Shown in pieces: positions 47,771-55,895 of a stretch of 64,000 bases of DNA; within the stretch, counting starts at the first letter, position 1, and every line of letters begins with the position of its first letter. The stretch covers positions 1 through 64,000 of the forward strand of contig MNYZ01000049.1 in NCBI GenBank assembly GCA_001873365.1. Direction: 5' to 3'. Origin of the DNA: Oscillatoriales cyanobacterium CG2_30_40_61. GTDB lineage: Bacteria; Cyanobacteriota; Cyanobacteriia; Cyanobacteriales; Microcoleaceae. The notes below the pieces were generated by a model. The model did no database searches. It was given only the letters and a program-made list of their open reading frames with translations, and was not told where the DNA came from. A program made the translations under genes and the position numbers.

Positions 47771-49096
47771 TTAAATACTAACTTCTTCCTCAATTTCTTC
47801 TTCTGATTCTTCTCTAACTTTAAAATACCAATAAAGATTAGCAACGGTTAAATTAGATGATTTTTCTAAATTGGCTAGATTTAATGTTCTATAACCGAAA
47901 TTTTCGGCATTTTCACTAACATAATTTTCGGCTTCTTTCCGTAAATCAGAACGCATTAAAAATTTAAGCTGTTGTTCTAAGGAAGAAGAATGAGATTTTT
48001 CTTTTATATTTTCATAAAAAATCTGTTCGGGTGGTTTCTCAATAGCTTTTAAAGATGATTCTGAATTAGAAACAGAATTTAACTCGCTCTCGTTCAAATC
48101 TATACTTTCTAACAAATTTAAGTCAGAAGGAGGTAAACTGTTAAACCAATCAACTTGATTTTTCCATAGTTCTAAAGCTGCTAGATCATGATTATGAATT
48201 CGGGTAATTTCAGGAAAAATAAAATCTAACTCATCTTGCGTTTGGCAATTTTCAATCACGTTTAAAGCATCTTGACGGATTTTATTTTGAAAATAGGATA
48301 GGCGATCGCTTAATGCTTTAGGTTCTCCTTGTAAATAATAGGTTATAGCGATCGCTTGTTCAATAATCCAAGCACATTCATATCGTCTCAGTTGACCTGC
48401 GGTTGAGGTTTCAGAAAGAATATGAGGACTATTATAAATTGCCAAAGACTCACTTAACGTTTGTCGGGCGTTAGATAACTCGACATTTCTAGCATTAATA
48501 TCTTGAATAGACGTAGCAATTTTTATAAGTTTGGTAGCTTCTAAAAATCGGCTATAAGCTTTAACAAACTCTAAACGGTGTTGATTAAAGGTAATATCTT
48601 GAGCAACTTGATCAATATGTTGAATAACTTCTAATCCTTGATTTCTTAACGCTTGTTTGAGATCAATAAATCCGTCTTTAACTTCTAATCTCAGTTGTTT
48701 AACATCTTCTCGTAATTTTAAAGTTTGCCATAAATTCACCGCCGAAAGAGCAGCAGTAACAGCTACACCCACACCAATAACAGCAGTAGTCGCTTGTAAA
48801 ACACCTAAACTGCTTTGTAAATTATTTAACTGTCCTAAAACCGCTTGAAATCCCTGATTATTCTGATATATATTACCTGCTTTTATCACCATATTTGCCC
48901 ATGCTAGAAGGGGGTTAGCAGCAATAAAAGGCGCAAAAGGTGCATTATCAACCGTTAAACTTTTAGCGACTTCAACAAATTTACCCGTTATCGGATCTCT
49001 TAATATGGGTAAAAGTTGACCTGTATTTGTCGTAGCTTGGATCAGCTTACCCGCAGCCCAAAGAGCTTGATTACCCGCACTAAAGATGTACTCCAT
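47771..49096 (-). CDS. Hypothetical membrane-associated protein with central hydrophobic/coiled segment, unknown function
   Basis: Intact 441-aa ORF; hydrophobic stretch LQATTAVIGVGVAVTAALSAVNLW then coiled LREDVKQLRLEVKDGFIDLKQAL. Confidence 0.75.
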   Translation of the reverse strand: MEYIFSAGNQALWAAGKLIQATTNTGQLLPILRDPITGKFVEVAKSLTVDNAPFAPFIAANPLLAWANMVIKAGNIYQNNQGFQAVLGQLNNLQSSLGVLQATTAVIGVGVAVTAALSAVNLWQTLKLREDVKQLRLEVKDGFIDLKQALRNQGLEVIQHIDQVAQDITFNQHRLEFVKAYSRFLEATKLIKIATSIQDINARNVELSNARQTLSESLAIYNSPHILSETSTAGQLRRYECAWIIEQAIAITYYLQGEPKALSDRLSYFQNKIRQDALNVIENCQTQDELDFIFPEITRIHNHDLAALELWKNQVDWFNSLPPSDLNLLESIDLNESELNSVSNSESSLKAIEKPPEQIFYENIKEKSHSSSLEQQLKFLMRSDLRKEAENYVSENAENFGYRTLNLANLEKSSNLTVANLYWYFKVREESEEEIEEEVSI

Positions 49097-49274: not shown

Positions 49275-51899
49275 ATGGACATCAGCTTAATTAACTCTGA
49301 GTCTCTAGCTTTACTATCACGGATGGCAGGGCAAGATCTCCAGAAAAAAGATGCTACCCCGGCGGTAGTTTTTATGGCATCGTTGCTGTGCGTACTGATG
49401 GGGGTTATTTACCAGGATGGTAAAATTACACCTGAAGAAAGAGAACGTTGGCAAACTAATCTAACTCGCCTGATCCATCCTAACAGTAATTTAAAAAAAT
49501 TAGTCCCTATTTTTACAAAACATATTCTTTTTTTAGGAATTCATAAAAACTTTAAGGACTTATTATTATTAATGTCTACTCTGTCTGATTCCGAGAAACT
49601 GTTATTAATCGGTTTTGGTTATCAAATGTCGGCTTCAGATGGTGAGATAGAACTTAGAGAAAAAGATTATTTAGAAAACCTTGCTGATCAAATTAATATT
49701 GACTCTCGACATATACAAATTTTTGAATCAGCTTTTACCGACCTAGTTATTGAAGATCAAGAAGCTCTTGTTGAAGTTCATAGTTTACTTGATCCGGCGC
49801 AATTTCAATTATTAGATAATATTTTTGTTTTAGCTGCTAAAAATATTGTTGAAGTTTTACCGACTAAACCTAAATTAAAACGAGATAAAATTCGGGTTTT
49901 ACCAAGTTATGATAACCTGAAACAGTTTCAAAATTATCGCCAAGAATTAGATAATATTTGTGATCAATTTTATAAAATTATTGATCAAAATAAGCATCAA
50001 GTCTGGTCTAAAAATTTAATTGATGATATTCAAGAAATTTCCAATAAAAATCAATCAAAACGGTTTCGTGTAACGGTAGTTGGAGAATTTAGTCAAGGAA
50101 AATCAACCTTTTTAAATGCGTTAGTCGGTGAAGAAATCCAACCTGTACGAGAAATTCCTTGTACTGGGGTAGTGAGTGTTTTACGATATGGAGAGCAAAA
50201 ACGGGTCATTTGTTGTTATAAAGATGGACATAAAGAAGATATTCTTATAGAAGATTATCAAGAAAAAGTGAGTATTTCGGAAGAAGCTGCTATTGGAAAT
50301 TTAAGTAATGAACTGGCTGATTGTGAAATTGAGGAAATTATTTTTGAACATCCTGATTTAGACATTTGTAGCAGTGGAGTTGAAATTATTGATTCTCCTG
50401 GGTTGAATGAACATCCTGATAGAGAAGCGATTACTCAAAAAATTCTTAAAGATACGGACGCAGCTATTTTTATCACCAGTGCTTCCCGTTGTTTGGCTAA
50501 ATCGGAACGAGATGTAATAGAAGGATTAAAAGTCACTTTAAATGCAGGATTATCTGATCAACCTGCTAATAATCTTTTTATTTTAGTTAATTTTTGGGAT
50601 TTGGTACAAACTGAGAAGGGACGCACTCAAATTCCTAAACGAATTGAAGAAAATATTCAGGGTAAAAACCCCATTATTTCAGGAGAAAATCGAATTCACT
50701 ATATTTCTGCAAAATTAGCCTTAGATGCTATTGTGAATAATGAGCATAATGAATACATAGAAACTTTTGATTATTTTATTAATTGTATTCAAGACTTTTT
50801 AGTCAATGAGCGAGGTAAAATTGAAGTTACCTCTAATGTAAATCGAATTCAAGCATTAACTGAAATAGCCGATAATGATTTGAAACAGTATGAGAAAATT
50901 TTAGAAGGAAAAATCAAAATTTCTGAATCAGCAAAACTGGAAATTTTCGAGAAAATTGGAGAAGCGAGTGGACTATATCTTAGAATTTCAGATCAGGCAA
51001 AATATAGTGTAGCTGTTTCCCAGGAATACGCAACTGAATCTTGGAATAAATGGGTTCAAGGCTTGGAAGAACGTATAGTTAACAAAGGTGGTAAATTGAC
51101 ATCAGTACATTCACCTTTGGTAGAGCAGGAAAAAGTGTTACAGGATTACTGCGAACAATTTACTCAAGATCTTTCTGACGAAATACAAAATTGGATTAAT
51201 AATTTACAATCAGAAATTTTATCTCAACAAGCAAAAGAGCTAAATAGCGTAATTTATTCCGCATTAGAGGCAATTAGAAGAGATTTACAAAAATTGGGTA
51301 ATCAGCTAGGAACCAATTTAGATGAACAATTTACTAGCAACATCGCGAGTAATATTCGAGCTAATAATTTGGGAATTAACTATTTCATGGCTGGTAGCGA
51401 AAATAATGATGAGGGTGAATTCAATATGTTTGGTGGTTTGGGAGCGGGATTGGGAGCGGGAGCAGTTGGATTAACCGCAGGTGTATTACTTGGCATTTTA
51501 GGCTTAGGATTTATCCCTGCAATCATTGGAGGTCTAGGGGGTCTAGCAACTGCCATTAGTTTTTTATTTGGTAAGCCAGATGAAGATGAGGTTTATAATC
51601 AGTGTAAGTGGCAAGTATATGACTTAGGTTTTAAAAAGTTTTTTGAGTCTGAAGAAGAAACTTTTAATAGAATTGTTGAAAATATTGAATTAGTTTATCA
51701 AGAAAGATATCTTGTAGTTGCTGATTTTATTGAGCAAGCGATCGCACTCTATGAAAATTTGATTGAGCAGCAAGAAGAAGCTCATACTAAAACTTTAGAG
51801 GAAAAAGAAAAAACGATTGTTTGGATTAATCAACAACACCAAAAACTCGAAAAAATTCAAAATGAACTGGAGGCTATTGTTACTCAATTTACCCGTTAA
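49275..51899 (+). CDS. Dynamin-like large GTPase with N-terminal TerB-like domain
   Basis: TerB-like region MASLLCVLMGVIYQDGKITPEERERW..GFGYQMSASDGEIELREKDYL; G1 VVGEFSQGKSTFLNALVGEE; G3 IIDSPGLNEHPD; C-terminal GGLGAGLGAGAVGLTAGVLLGILGLGFIPAIIGGLGG membrane segment. Confidence 0.92.
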   Translation: MDISLINSESLALLSRMAGQDLQKKDATPAVVFMASLLCVLMGVIYQDGKITPEERERWQTNLTRLIHPNSNLKKLVPIFTKHILFLGIHKNFKDLLLLMSTLSDSEKLLLIGFGYQMSASDGEIELREKDYLENLADQINIDSRHIQIFESAFTDLVIEDQEALVEVHSLLDPAQFQLLDNIFVLAAKNIVEVLPTKPKLKRDKIRVLPSYDNLKQFQNYRQELDNICDQFYKIIDQNKHQVWSKNLIDDIQEISNKNQSKRFRVTVVGEFSQGKSTFLNALVGEEIQPVREIPCTGVVSVLRYGEQKRVICCYKDGHKEDILIEDYQEKVSISEEAAIGNLSNELADCEIEEIIFEHPDLDICSSGVEIIDSPGLNEHPDREAITQKILKDTDAAIFITSASRCLAKSERDVIEGLKVTLNAGLSDQPANNLFILVNFWDLVQTEKGRTQIPKRIEENIQGKNPIISGENRIHYISAKLALDAIVNNEHNEYIETFDYFINCIQDFLVNERGKIEVTSNVNRIQALTEIADNDLKQYEKILEGKIKISESAKLEIFEKIGEASGLYLRISDQAKYSVAVSQEYATESWNKWVQGLEERIVNKGGKLTSVHSPLVEQEKVLQDYCEQFTQDLSDEIQNWINNLQSEILSQQAKELNSVIYSALEAIRRDLQKLGNQLGTNLDEQFTSNIASNIRANNLGINYFMAGSENNDEGEFNMFGGLGAGLGAGAVGLTAGVLLGILGLGFIPAIIGGLGGLATAISFLFGKPDEDEVYNQCKWQVYDLGFKKFFESEEETFNRIVENIELVYQERYLVVADFIEQAIALYENLIEQQEEAHTKTLEEKEKTIVWINQQHQKLEKIQNELEAIVTQFTR

Positions 51900-51930: not shown

Positions 51931-52000
51931 GCTCAGAAACCGGGTTTCTCATGTTATCTATCGGTTATAACCGAACCTTTTGTTAAGAAACCCGGTTTCT
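51931..52000. repeat. 70-bp TIR-bearing element, copy 1
   Basis: gctcAGAAACCGGGTTTCTcatgttatcta TCGGTTATAACCGA ..tgttaAGAAACCCGGTTTCT; terminal 15-mers are exact reverse complements. Confidence 0.93.
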
Positions 52001-52104
52001 CTTTCCCAAGTTAATTGATAAAAATCATTCTGTCTTCCTTTCTTTCCTAAAAAAAATTAATTGAGTTGATTATTTTTGCTTAAATTTTTACAGAGATTAA
52101 ACCT

Positions 52105-52509
52105 ATGATGACAGCAGAAAAATATATGCAACTCCTCCAAGATTTTCCTCCTCGTCCCATTACCTCTGAAGAAGATTTTGCAGCGACTCAAACTGTGATT
52201 AACAGATTACTAGATAAACCCGAACTCACCCCAGAAGAAGAAGACTATTTAGATGTTTTGGGTGCATTAGTTTCTGAATATGAAAATCAACAAGAAGACC
52301 TGATTCCTGATATTTATGGTGTGGAGCTTTTAAAAGTTTTAATTGTGGAACGAAACCTTAAACAAAAAGACCTTGTTTCTATCTTTAAGACAGAATCTAT
52401 TGTCTCTGATATTCTAAATGAAAAACGCCAACTTACAACTCGCCATATTCAAGAATTATCAGAGTTTTTCCATTTTTCCCCTGCCGTATTTTTTCCAAAT
52501 TTAAAATAG
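52105..52509 (+). CDS. HigA-like antitoxin / HTH protein without an adjacent recognisable toxin
   Basis: ITSEEDFAATQTVINRLLDKPELTPEEEDYLDVLGALVSEYE..LKVLIVERNLKQKDLVSIFKTESIVSDILNEKRQLTTRHIQELSEFFHFSPAVFF. Confidence 0.88.
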   Translation: MMTAEKYMQLLQDFPPRPITSEEDFAATQTVINRLLDKPELTPEEEDYLDVLGALVSEYENQQEDLIPDIYGVELLKVLIVERNLKQKDLVSIFKTESIVSDILNEKRQLTTRHIQELSEFFHFSPAVFFPNLK

Positions 52510-52522
52510 CAATTCGGAATAG

Positions 52523-52592
52523 GCTCAGAAACCGGGTTTCTCATGTTATCTATCGGCGACAATCGAAAGTTTTGTTAAGAAACCCGGTTTCT
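52523..52592. repeat. 70-bp TIR-bearing element, copy 2
   Basis: gctcAGAAACCGGGTTTCTcatgttatctatcggcgacaatcgaaagttttgttaAGAAACCCGGTTTCT. Confidence 0.93.
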
Positions 52593-52635
52593 ATTTCCAA
52601 AGTTAATGGGTGTTATAATCCAAATATTCTAATTG

Positions 52636-52899
52636 CTATAATAATCGATCATAATCTGCATGGGAACCAATCCAAAACCATGCTATCTCACCGTTTTCTT
52701 CGACTGCCAAGGCTCGATAGTGAATTCCAATCCGCACCGACCAGAACGGCCCCACCTTCTTAAAGTGCAGCGAAGGATATCGAGAATCCCCCTTGAGTAA
52801 CTCATAGCATCGATCAGCTAGTTCTTGGATCTCATTCGGTAACTGTCGATAGTGATACCAGAAATCAGGGGTTGCACGATATTTCACAGATCGGTACAA
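52636..52899 (-). CDS. RelE/ParE-superfamily toxin
   Basis: RATPDFWYHYRQLPNEIQELADRCYELLKGDSRYPSLHFKKVGPFWSVRIGIHYRALAVEENGEIAWFWIGSHADYDRLL. Confidence 0.9.
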   Translation of the reverse strand: MYRSVKYRATPDFWYHYRQLPNEIQELADRCYELLKGDSRYPSLHFKKVGPFWSVRIGIHYRALAVEENGEIAWFWIGSHADYDRLL

Positions 52900-53084
52900 C
52901 GTCCTTCCCGTAGATGTTGCAGTGCTTGTTGAGCCAGCCCATCGAGCCGACCTGCTGTAACATCTTCTTCAAATTGCCGATCCCATATTTCTGCATCAAA
53001 TTCTGCAAACCACACCCGGAAAGCGGCTAGTTCTTCTTTCGTTAATTGACTGACAGCACTTTCAATCTCCTGCAAATTACTCAT
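52884..53084 (-). CDS. Cognate antitoxin (overlaps the toxin gene)
   Basis: LQEIESAVSQLTKEELAAFRVWFAEFDAEIWDRQFEEDVTAGRLDGLAQQALQHLREGRCTDL; 16-nt overlap with the downstream toxin ORF. Confidence 0.87.
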   Translation of the reverse strand: MSNLQEIESAVSQLTKEELAAFRVWFAEFDAEIWDRQFEEDVTAGRLDGLAQQALQHLREGRCTDL

Positions 53085-53195
53085 ACACTTACAGTAAATT
53101 CAGCAATTAGAAATATAGCTAATTATACCACTATTCATCCAATTTAATCCTCTGTTATTGGGGGCTATTCCTCCTGATGTTTATAGCTAGAAACT

Positions 53196-53261
53196 AGAAA
53201 CCGGGTTTCTCAGGTTATCTATCGGCGATAACCGAAAGTTTTGTTAAGAAACCCGGTTTCT
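53196..53261. repeat. TIR-bearing element, copy 3 (66 bp)
   Basis: AGAAACCGGGTTTCTcaggttatctatcggcgataaccgaaagttttgttaAGAAACCCGGTTTCT. Confidence 0.93.
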
Positions 53262-53270
53262 ATTTATTCA

Positions 53271-55895
53271 TCACTCTTGAACAGTTAACAATTCCAGGGG
53301 TAAACGTTTAAAAACTAATCGTTCATTTTCGATATCAACAAAAATGGTATCCCCATTCACAAATTCACTGCGAAGAATTGCCTTAGCAATAGGTGTTTCT
53401 AATTCCCGTTGAATTGCCCGTTTTAACGGCCGAGCGCCATAGACTGGATCATAACCCACTTCTGCTAAGAAATCTAAGGCAGAATCCGATAATTTTAACG
53501 CCATTTTTCGTTCCGCTAACCGTTTCGATAAACGTTCAACTTGCAGACTCACAATTTGTCGCAATTCTGATTTTTCTAAGGCATGGAAAATGATCATTTC
53601 ATCAATTCGGTTCAGAAATTCCGGTCGGAAACTTGCCCGCATTGCTTCTAATACCCGACTCCGCATTTCTTCATATTGGGAATCGGAGCCCGACACATCT
53701 AAAATATACTGTGATCCCACATTACTCGTCATAATAATAATGCTATTTTTGAAATCAACAGTATGACCCTGTGCGTCCGTAACCCGCCCATCATCGAGGA
53801 TTTGCAACATAATATTAAATACATCGGGATGGGCTTTTTCGATTTCATCAAACAGAATTACAGCGTAGGGACGGCGACGAATTGCTTCAGTTAATTGCCC
53901 CCCTTCATCATAACCAACATACCCCGGAGGCGCCCCAATTAAACGGGAAACCGCGTGTTTTTCCATGTATTCCGACATATCAATTCGCACCATCGCTTCT
54001 TCCGTATCAAAGAGATAGGAAGCCAAGGCTTTTGCTAACTCCGTTTTCCCGACTCCTGTGGGGCCTAAAAAGATAAAACTAGCGACGGGACGGTTGGGGT
54101 CAGATAACCCCGCTCTTGACCGTTGAATCGCATCAGCAACGGCCGTTACCGCTTGATTTTGACCGATAACTCGGTGGTGTAATTCATCTTCTAAATTTAG
54201 GAGTTTTTGCATTTCCGACTCGACTAATTTACTAATCGGAATTCCTGTCCATTTCGAGATAATTTCCGCAATATCGGCTTCAGTTACTTCCTCCCGTAAT
54301 AGGGTTTTGCCACTGGTTTGAGTATTTTCTAATTGGGCTTCTATGGCTTTCAGTTTTTTCTTGAGTTCTTCCATTTTCCCATATTTTAATTCCGCCGCTC
54401 GGTTTAAATCATAGTTACGTTCTGCTTGCTGAATTTCAATATTAACCCGATCAATTTCTTCTTTGACCGATTGAATATCAGTGATCACATTTTTCTCCGA
54501 TTGCCATTGGGAACTCAGGCTTTGTTGTTCTTGTTTTAATGTTCCTAATTCCGTTTCTATCCGTTCCAAACGTTCTAAAGAGGCAGCATCGCTTTCTTTT
54601 TTGAGCGATAAACGTTCCATTTCTAATTGCAAAATTCGCCGATCAATTTCATCTAATTCTTCCGGTTTAGAAGTAATTTCCATCTTTAATTTAGCCGCCG
54701 ATTCATCGACTAAATCAATGGCTTTATCGGGTAAAAAGCGATCGCTAATATATCGAGTTGATAATACCGCCGCGGCTACTAAGGCACTATCGGAAATTTT
54801 TACCCCATGATGCACTTCATAACGTTCTTTTAATCCGCGTAAAATTGAGATAGTATCTTCAACTGTCGGTTGATCAACATAAACCTGTTGAAAACGCCGT
54901 TCTAAGGCGGGATCTTTTTCAAGATACTTGCGATATTCGTCTAGGGTTGTTGCCCCAATACAACGCAATTCTCCCCGGGCTAACATAGGTTTTAAAAGGT
55001 TCCCGGCATCCATCGCCCCTTGGGTTGCACCCGCCCCAACCACGGTATGAATTTCATCAATAAATAGAATAATTCCACCCTGAGAATCCGTAACTTCTTT
55101 TAATACCGCTTTTAAGCGTTCTTCAAATTCTCCTCGGAATTTTGCCCCGGCAATTAACGCCCCCATATCTAAGGCAATTAACCGTCTTTCTTGCAAAGAT
55201 TGAGGCACATCTCCAGCAATAATTCGCTGGGCAAGACCTTCGGCGATCGCTGTTTTACCAACACCTGGTTCGCCAATTAATACCGGATTATTTTTAGTTC
55301 TGCGGCTTAAAATTTGTATGGTACGGCGAATTTCATCATCTCGTCCAATTACCGGATCAAGTTTACCTTGACGGGCGGCTTCGGTTAAATCTCGACCATA
55401 TTTTTCCAGGGATTCATATTTATTTTCGGGTGTTTGATCAGTCACTTTATTGTTTCCTCTAATTTGAGTAATAATAGATTTGAGTTTGGTTTCATCTAAG
55501 TGAAATTCTTGAAATAAAGCCTTGCCAAAACGATCATCTTTAGGATAAGCTAAAAATAGATGTTCAATGGAAATAAACTCATCTTTGTATTCTTGACGAT
55601 AGACTTCGGCTCGGTCTAAAAGGGTATCTAAACTTCGACCTAAATAAACATTAGCAATTGCCCCAGTTATTTTAGGTTGACGATTAATAAAATCATCGGT
55701 TCTTTCTCTAAATTTAGCAACAGATATTCCCGCTTTAGTAATTATGTTTTTAGTTAATCCGTCTTGTTCGAGCAACGCTTTCATTAAGTGTTCTGTTTCA
55801 ATTTGTTGCTGTTGGGATTGTTTGACAAGTTCGGGAGTCCGGGCTAAGGCTTCCCAGGTTTTTTCTGTAAACTTATTCGGATCAGTTGGCTGCAT
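53271..55895 (-). CDS. clpB: ATP-dependent chaperone ClpB
   Basis: Clp-N repeats, [19 protein letters not shown]-domain coiled coil, [29 protein letters not shown]. Confidence 0.98.

Follow-up and report, generated by a model that had tools for sequence, protein, structure and literature searches.

The window, a 64,000-nucleotide stretch of DNA from an Oscillatoriales cyanobacterium, contains a group of small genes lying between a dynamin-like GTPase gene and a clpB-like gene, and three copies of a short inverted repeat are interspersed with these genes (Table 1). A 441-aa ORF without a Pfam match (47771-49096, minus strand) adjoins the dynamin-like gene. The initial annotation placed a HigA-like gene between copies 1 and 2 of the repeat and a RelE/antitoxin pair between copies 2 and 3. 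An ORF is indeed present in the first interval, but no Pfam or NCBIfam family matches it at E 1e-3. In the second interval, the toxin side of the pair was substantiated by a family match, to ParE_like, whereas its smaller partner matched no family in Pfam or NCBIfam. The clpB-like gene, which had been thought to start just after copy 3, is a minus-strand gene whose end is at 53271; copy 3 is therefore located downstream of clpB and not before its start.

Table 1. Genes and repeats at the locus, and related features elsewhere in the same genome. Coordinates are those of the window unless a locus (L) or contig (C) is named; P and Q are the two 15-nt arms of the repeat.
Feature	Coordinates	Strand	Size	Remarks
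Dynamin-like GTPase gene	49275..51899	+		Pfam Dynamin_N, 95 bits; left border of the variable region
REPIN-like doublet, copy 1	51935..52000	.		Two inverted 15-nt arms around a 36-nt spacer
134-aa ORF ('HigA-like')	52105..52509	+	134 aa	Antitoxin-like by eye only; absent from congener G007
REPIN-like doublet, copy 2	52527..52592	.		91% identity with copy 1 over 88 nt, flanks included
ParE-like toxin gene	52636..52899	-	87 aa	ParE_like PF24732, 29.5 bits (cut-off 24.4)
Putative antitoxin ORF	52884..53084	-	66 aa	By position only; overlaps the toxin start
REPIN-like doublet, copy 3	53196..53261	.		About 10 bp past the end of the clpB stop codon
clpB-like gene	53271..55895	-	874 aa	Right border, 3' end facing copy 3; clpB identity taken from the initial annotation and the sequence
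RAYT gene, Y1/HuH tyrosine transposase	C68:171-737		189 aa	Doublets on both sides
33-bp unit (P-3nt-Q or Q-3nt-P)	L039:6203-6235 = C1:26203-26235		33 bp	In frame inside a 937-aa ORF
33-bp unit (P-3nt-Q or Q-3nt-P)	L042:12713-12745 = C7:27713-27745		33 bp	In frame inside a 319-aa ORF
MITE-like element	L042:11024-11138 (C7)		~113 bp	GGACTTACGC ends; degenerate P..Q doublet inside

All three copies in the window are doublets of 66 bp, in which the arm P (AGAAACCGGGTTTCT) is followed, after 36 nt, by the arm Q (AGAAACCCGGTTTCT). P and Q are exact reverse complements of each other over their 15 nt, and each is palindromic except for its central base. The arms thus amount to six 15-mers, forming three inverted pairs. 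The presence of three copies with exact, near-palindromic inverted arms had been correctly recognized in the initial annotation; the lengths and starts given there have to be corrected, copies 1 and 2 beginning at 51935 and 52527 and not at 51931 and 52523. When up to two mismatches are allowed, the window contains 12 matches of the 15-mer against 0.29 expected, and none of 100 shuffles reached this number. The similarity of copies 1 and 2 extends past the arms into the flanks TAGGCTC and TTTCC(C/A)AAGTTAAT; because it includes these flanks, the two copies appear to be products of local duplication and not of two separate insertions. Copy 3 is less alike. The single strands of the copies each fold into one long hairpin, with z values of about -6 (range -5 to -7.5); for copy 1 the DNA fold has an energy of -18.8 kcal/mol and a z of -6.1. 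No family reached the gathering score in an Rfam scan of the window, and a search of a literature collection with the 15-mer and its inner 13-mers did not find any paper containing them.

The repeat belongs to a large family dispersed in the genome from which the window comes (4.8 Mb, 119 contigs). The 15-mer occurs exactly at 275 sites and, with at most one mismatch, at about 390 (388 forward and 393 reverse, each site being counted on both strands because P and Q differ by one base), whereas a reversed control pattern gave no site. The arrangement of the arms was analysed in approximately 434 kb sampled around known sites, where the density is not that of the genome as a whole. Most of the sampled arms are organized as P-then-Q doublets with a start-to-start distance of 49-53 bp, tandem arrays of doublets also being present, and a minor class has a 3-nt loop and a total length of 33 bp. 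The bias towards intergenic space is strong: 46 of the 51 sampled clusters lie outside ORFs, though 83% of that sequence is coding. Lone sites carry on average 2.2 mismatches against 0.6 for grouped sites, a figure partly shaped by the limit of three mismatches at which sites were accepted.

Fourteen loci with the 33-bp form were examined, locus L214, at a contig end, being outside this number. Two of the units are well inside long ORFs (Table 1), one is near the end of a 332-aa ORF, and the rest are without a convincing ORF. At the site in the 937-aa ORF, the number of 15-mers, all in frame, is one or two depending on the congener, and their central base can be either of the two; at the site in the 319-aa ORF, congeners have the whole unit, half of it or none. 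About 10-15 of the sampled clusters lie inside elements of some 113 bp that end in GGACTTACGC, and the site orthologous to the one listed in Table 1 is empty in congener G007. Analysis of target-site duplications and empty sites at six loci gave a clean result for this one GGACTTACGC element, but not for the doublets, the flanks of which differ messily, and no single-copy doublet insertion with a clean empty site was recovered among the six. The copies in the window have neither GGACTTACGC ends nor a consistent target-site duplication. The GGACTTACGC MITE seems either to have a doublet as its passenger or to be derived from a doublet.

The initial annotation rightly stated that no transposase is contained in the element; a cognate one is encoded elsewhere in the same genome. 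One of the Y1_Tnp genes of this genome, the RAYT gene of contig C68, is embedded in exact copies of the doublet. Its product matches Y1_Tnp (PF01797) above the cut-off and scores 76 bits with REP_Tyr_transpos (NF047646), just below the cut-off of 80 bits. The nearest solved structure is that of the Escherichia coli TnpAREP (4er8), although the match is weak (E 0.0018). The catalytic motifs NHYH and YIHLNP are intact, and the FQ and SS motifs are also present.

The link between the repeat and this transposase recurs in other genomes. Among the homologues examined that have 62% identity or more (the RAYT itself being included and a 31-aa piece at 65% identity in G035 left out), 11 of 11 have the 15-mer within approximately 600 bp, against only 9 of the 84 Y1 loci outside this group (Fisher p 2e-9), where the sites are single except for one pair. 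The homologues with 62-89% identity come from ten other genomes and all adjoin the 15-mer; one of them is a fragment, with repeats on its sole remaining side, and another has decayed repeats. Homologues at 54-59% identity have no adjoining 15-mer, and near 30% identity one has a single site. The clade of RAYTs so tightly associated with the repeat has members in several genera and families and forms a monophyletic group within the Y1 proteins sampled (99/98). All RAYT relatives detected in a plasmid search have less than 60% identity.

The flanks of the arms were compared in the arrays that surround RAYT genes. In those of four genomes (G022, G024, G019 and G002), 27 of 28 left arms have GGG at a distance of no more than 10 nt, right arms never have it beside them, and outer bins contain it in 2.7 of 56 cases; the arrays are internally duplicated and these counts are consequently not independent. 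Among dispersed copies of the own genome, GGG was found at 8 of 61 flanks, compared with 3.3. RAYT arrays of three genera display a one-sided GGGG(N)YTC upstream of the left arm (L059-L062). A search for a GTAG foot (the tetranucleotide GT[AG]G at the hairpin base) was negative, the highest information in the flanks being 0.5 bit, at +1/+2 (G, A). In one pairwise alignment with 4er8, the positions W94, Q95, E100, H101 and R104, which are listed for GTAG contact (PMC6006769), correspond to F, Q, A, I and D of the RAYT, respectively.

The exact 15-mer is present in 41 of 60 relatives, with 1 to 647 copies each. Alignment of 22 elements from several genera revealed nearly invariant arms and a spacer that is degenerate but homologous (approximately CCAAATCTCGGTTAnGATGCAAAGATTATCGC). 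The spacers of the window copies best match those of the RAYT arrays in congener G002, with a score reached by 2-5 of 300 shuffled spacers. The median copy number is 80 in genomes with RAYT and 5 in those without (p 0.0009, the statistic ignoring relatedness); within family f1 this link is weak (p 0.02). Several of the counts presented here draw on related sequences and are not independent. Genome G043, from another family, has 647 exact 15-mers, some of them with the same spacer consensus, and no Y1 protein was found in it. The near-complete genomes G001 and G009 (5 contigs each) possess 82 copies each and no close RAYT homologue. In the own genome, the first 200 bases of contigs C8, C29, C34, C37 and C68 are in tandem arrays of the repeat. 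Such arrays therefore probably break assembly, and RAYT genes may be hidden in fragmented genomes. Broken assembly could explain the lack of RAYT in some genomes, but is an unlikely explanation for G001 and G009; the repeats may persist after the loss of the enzyme, or use another one.

Congeners differ in the small genes that separate the dynamin-like gene from clpB, with repeats at the breakpoints. Three of them, G009, G004 and G008, have no copy 1: in G009 other small genes follow copy 2, in G004 about 500 bp of other sequence occupy the place where copy 1 would be, and in G008 copy 2 is missing at the locus as well. In G007 the 134-aa gene is absent and two fused tandem copies are found at the junction, flanked on the left as copy 1 is and on the right as copy 2 is. 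In G001, G004, G006 and G009, the order of the antitoxin segment and the flank to the right of copy 2 is different. The simplest reading of these sequences is that the differences arose by deletion and exchange through homologous recombination between dispersed copies, and they are consistent with such recombination being occasional here.

Could the repeats be a device for the exchange of toxin-antitoxin or other small cassettes, with recombination at the 15-mer as its purpose? The gene content of the congeners does differ with repeats at the junctions, and G007, without the gene that otherwise separates copies 1 and 2, has two fused copies at that place, but passive homologous recombination fits these local junctions. 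A device of this kind would be restricted to, or enriched at, exchanged cassettes and served by a dedicated recombinase. The genome-wide search instead uncovered hundreds of copies in other places, mostly ordinary intergenic spaces, a scatter that essentially matches what the initial annotation had named as refuting its proposal, and RAYT is the sole recombinase linked to them. We consider this explanation very improbable. The initial suggestion of a tiny MITE or cassette-shuffling repeat was right as to the kind of element, small and non-autonomous, but cassette shuffling as its function is not supported, the copies being scattered between genes; a weaker form of the idea holds at this locus, in the differences among congeners.

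A similarly low probability is assigned to the idea of MITEs belonging to a DDE-type insertion sequence whose terminal repeats are GGACTTACGC. The clusters contained in the GGACTTACGC elements, and the absence of one such element from the orthologous site in G007, would be expected from it; nevertheless, the GGACTTACGC ends are missing from the window copies, from the copies flanking RAYT and from most of the sampled doublets. Least probable of all, in our opinion, are immobile hairpins retained because they serve the host, in regulation, as terminators or as sites to which one of its proteins binds. Strong folds, exact arms and a mild excess of convergent gene neighbours (17 seen, 11 expected) are compatible with such a role, but a copy number ranging from 0 to 647 across relatives, the tandem arrays and the tight linkage to one transposase clade argue against it.

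The repeats display the characters by which REPINs are recognized: an inverted doublet at a preferred distance, extragenic location and high copy number, conserved arms with a variable spacer and a hairpin, doublets less decayed than singlets, and a RAYT flanked by them. We are fairly confident that the copies in the window belong to a REPIN family, are non-autonomous and are, most probably, multiplied in trans by the RAYT of contig C68. We infer that this RAYT moves the doublets, and does so by a single-strand route. The doublet would fold as a hairpin out of single-stranded DNA during replication, and the Y1 HuH enzyme would recognize the palindromes of the arms and cut and join single strands, the new copy landing almost always between genes. 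The spacer would then drift while keeping its length, and the arms, being read by the enzyme, would remain exact. Local duplication would account for the tandem arrays and for the copies that lie close together in the window, and recombination between copies could delete or exchange the small genes lying between them.

The family shares with the REPIN-RAYT systems (Bertels and Rainey 2011, PMC3116915; REPtrons, Nunvar 2010, PMC2817692) high-copy intergenic inverted doublets with conserved arms, a spacer constrained mainly in length, tandem clusters adjoining one RAYT gene and more decayed singlets. It differs from them by its arm, which is an almost perfect palindrome of 15 nt and has no GTAG foot, and by RAYT motifs of another subclass. 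The NHYH, FQ, YIHLNP and SS motifs match the row of subclass 2.1 (HuH NH[YF]H, FQ, Y[IV]HLNP and SS; PMC6006769), which is Bertels group 1 and is related to the TIRYTs of TIRtrons (PMC3733652, PMC6006769); the RAYT would be placed in this subclass by motif. Neither automatic nor manual searches detected REP-like sequences near subclass 2.1 genes (PMC6006769), and TIR families, some of which are self-complementary and occur in dimers, are moderately abundant (PMC3733652), whereas here there are hundreds of copies. Furthermore, proteins of subclass 2.1 have a C-terminal HTH-like extension and a median length of 238 aa, whereas in the shorter RAYT a Pfam search gave no second domain and no C-terminal helix-turn-helix. 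The GGGG(N)YTC adjoining one arm resembles the GGGGWSAS often carried by the repeats that flank TIRYTs (PMC3733652). The cyanobacterial GTAG-12, -15 and -16, monitored in Anabaena, Nostoc and Cyanothece (PMC3733652), are also short high-copy palindromes, but are defined by a GTAG tag that is absent here. RR1-7 of the Planktothrix mcy region (43-45 bp; PMC4766695) are likewise REP-like palindromes of a filamentous cyanobacterium; as far as the printed 10-bp direct repeats of RR1-7 are concerned, they do not contain the 15-mer.

A broader proposal is plausible, but we hold it tentatively, as somewhat short of an even chance: a RAYT clade that has the motifs of subclass 2.1, for which REPs are reported to be lacking, would be the driver of a high-copy REPIN family present in several families of cyanobacteria, with nested palindromic arms, a GGGG-type foot instead of GTAG, and a loop-shortened 33-bp form that also inserts into genes in frame and undergoes gain, loss or change between congeners. 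If true, REPIN-RAYT biology would reach a subclass of transposases believed to be REP-free, and the GGGG foot would join REPtrons to TIRtrons. The hundreds of copies, together with many congeneric genomes, would make this family a system in which to test GTAG-free recognition. It would also serve as a warning that toxin-antitoxin genes found between such repeats need not be a dedicated cassette system.
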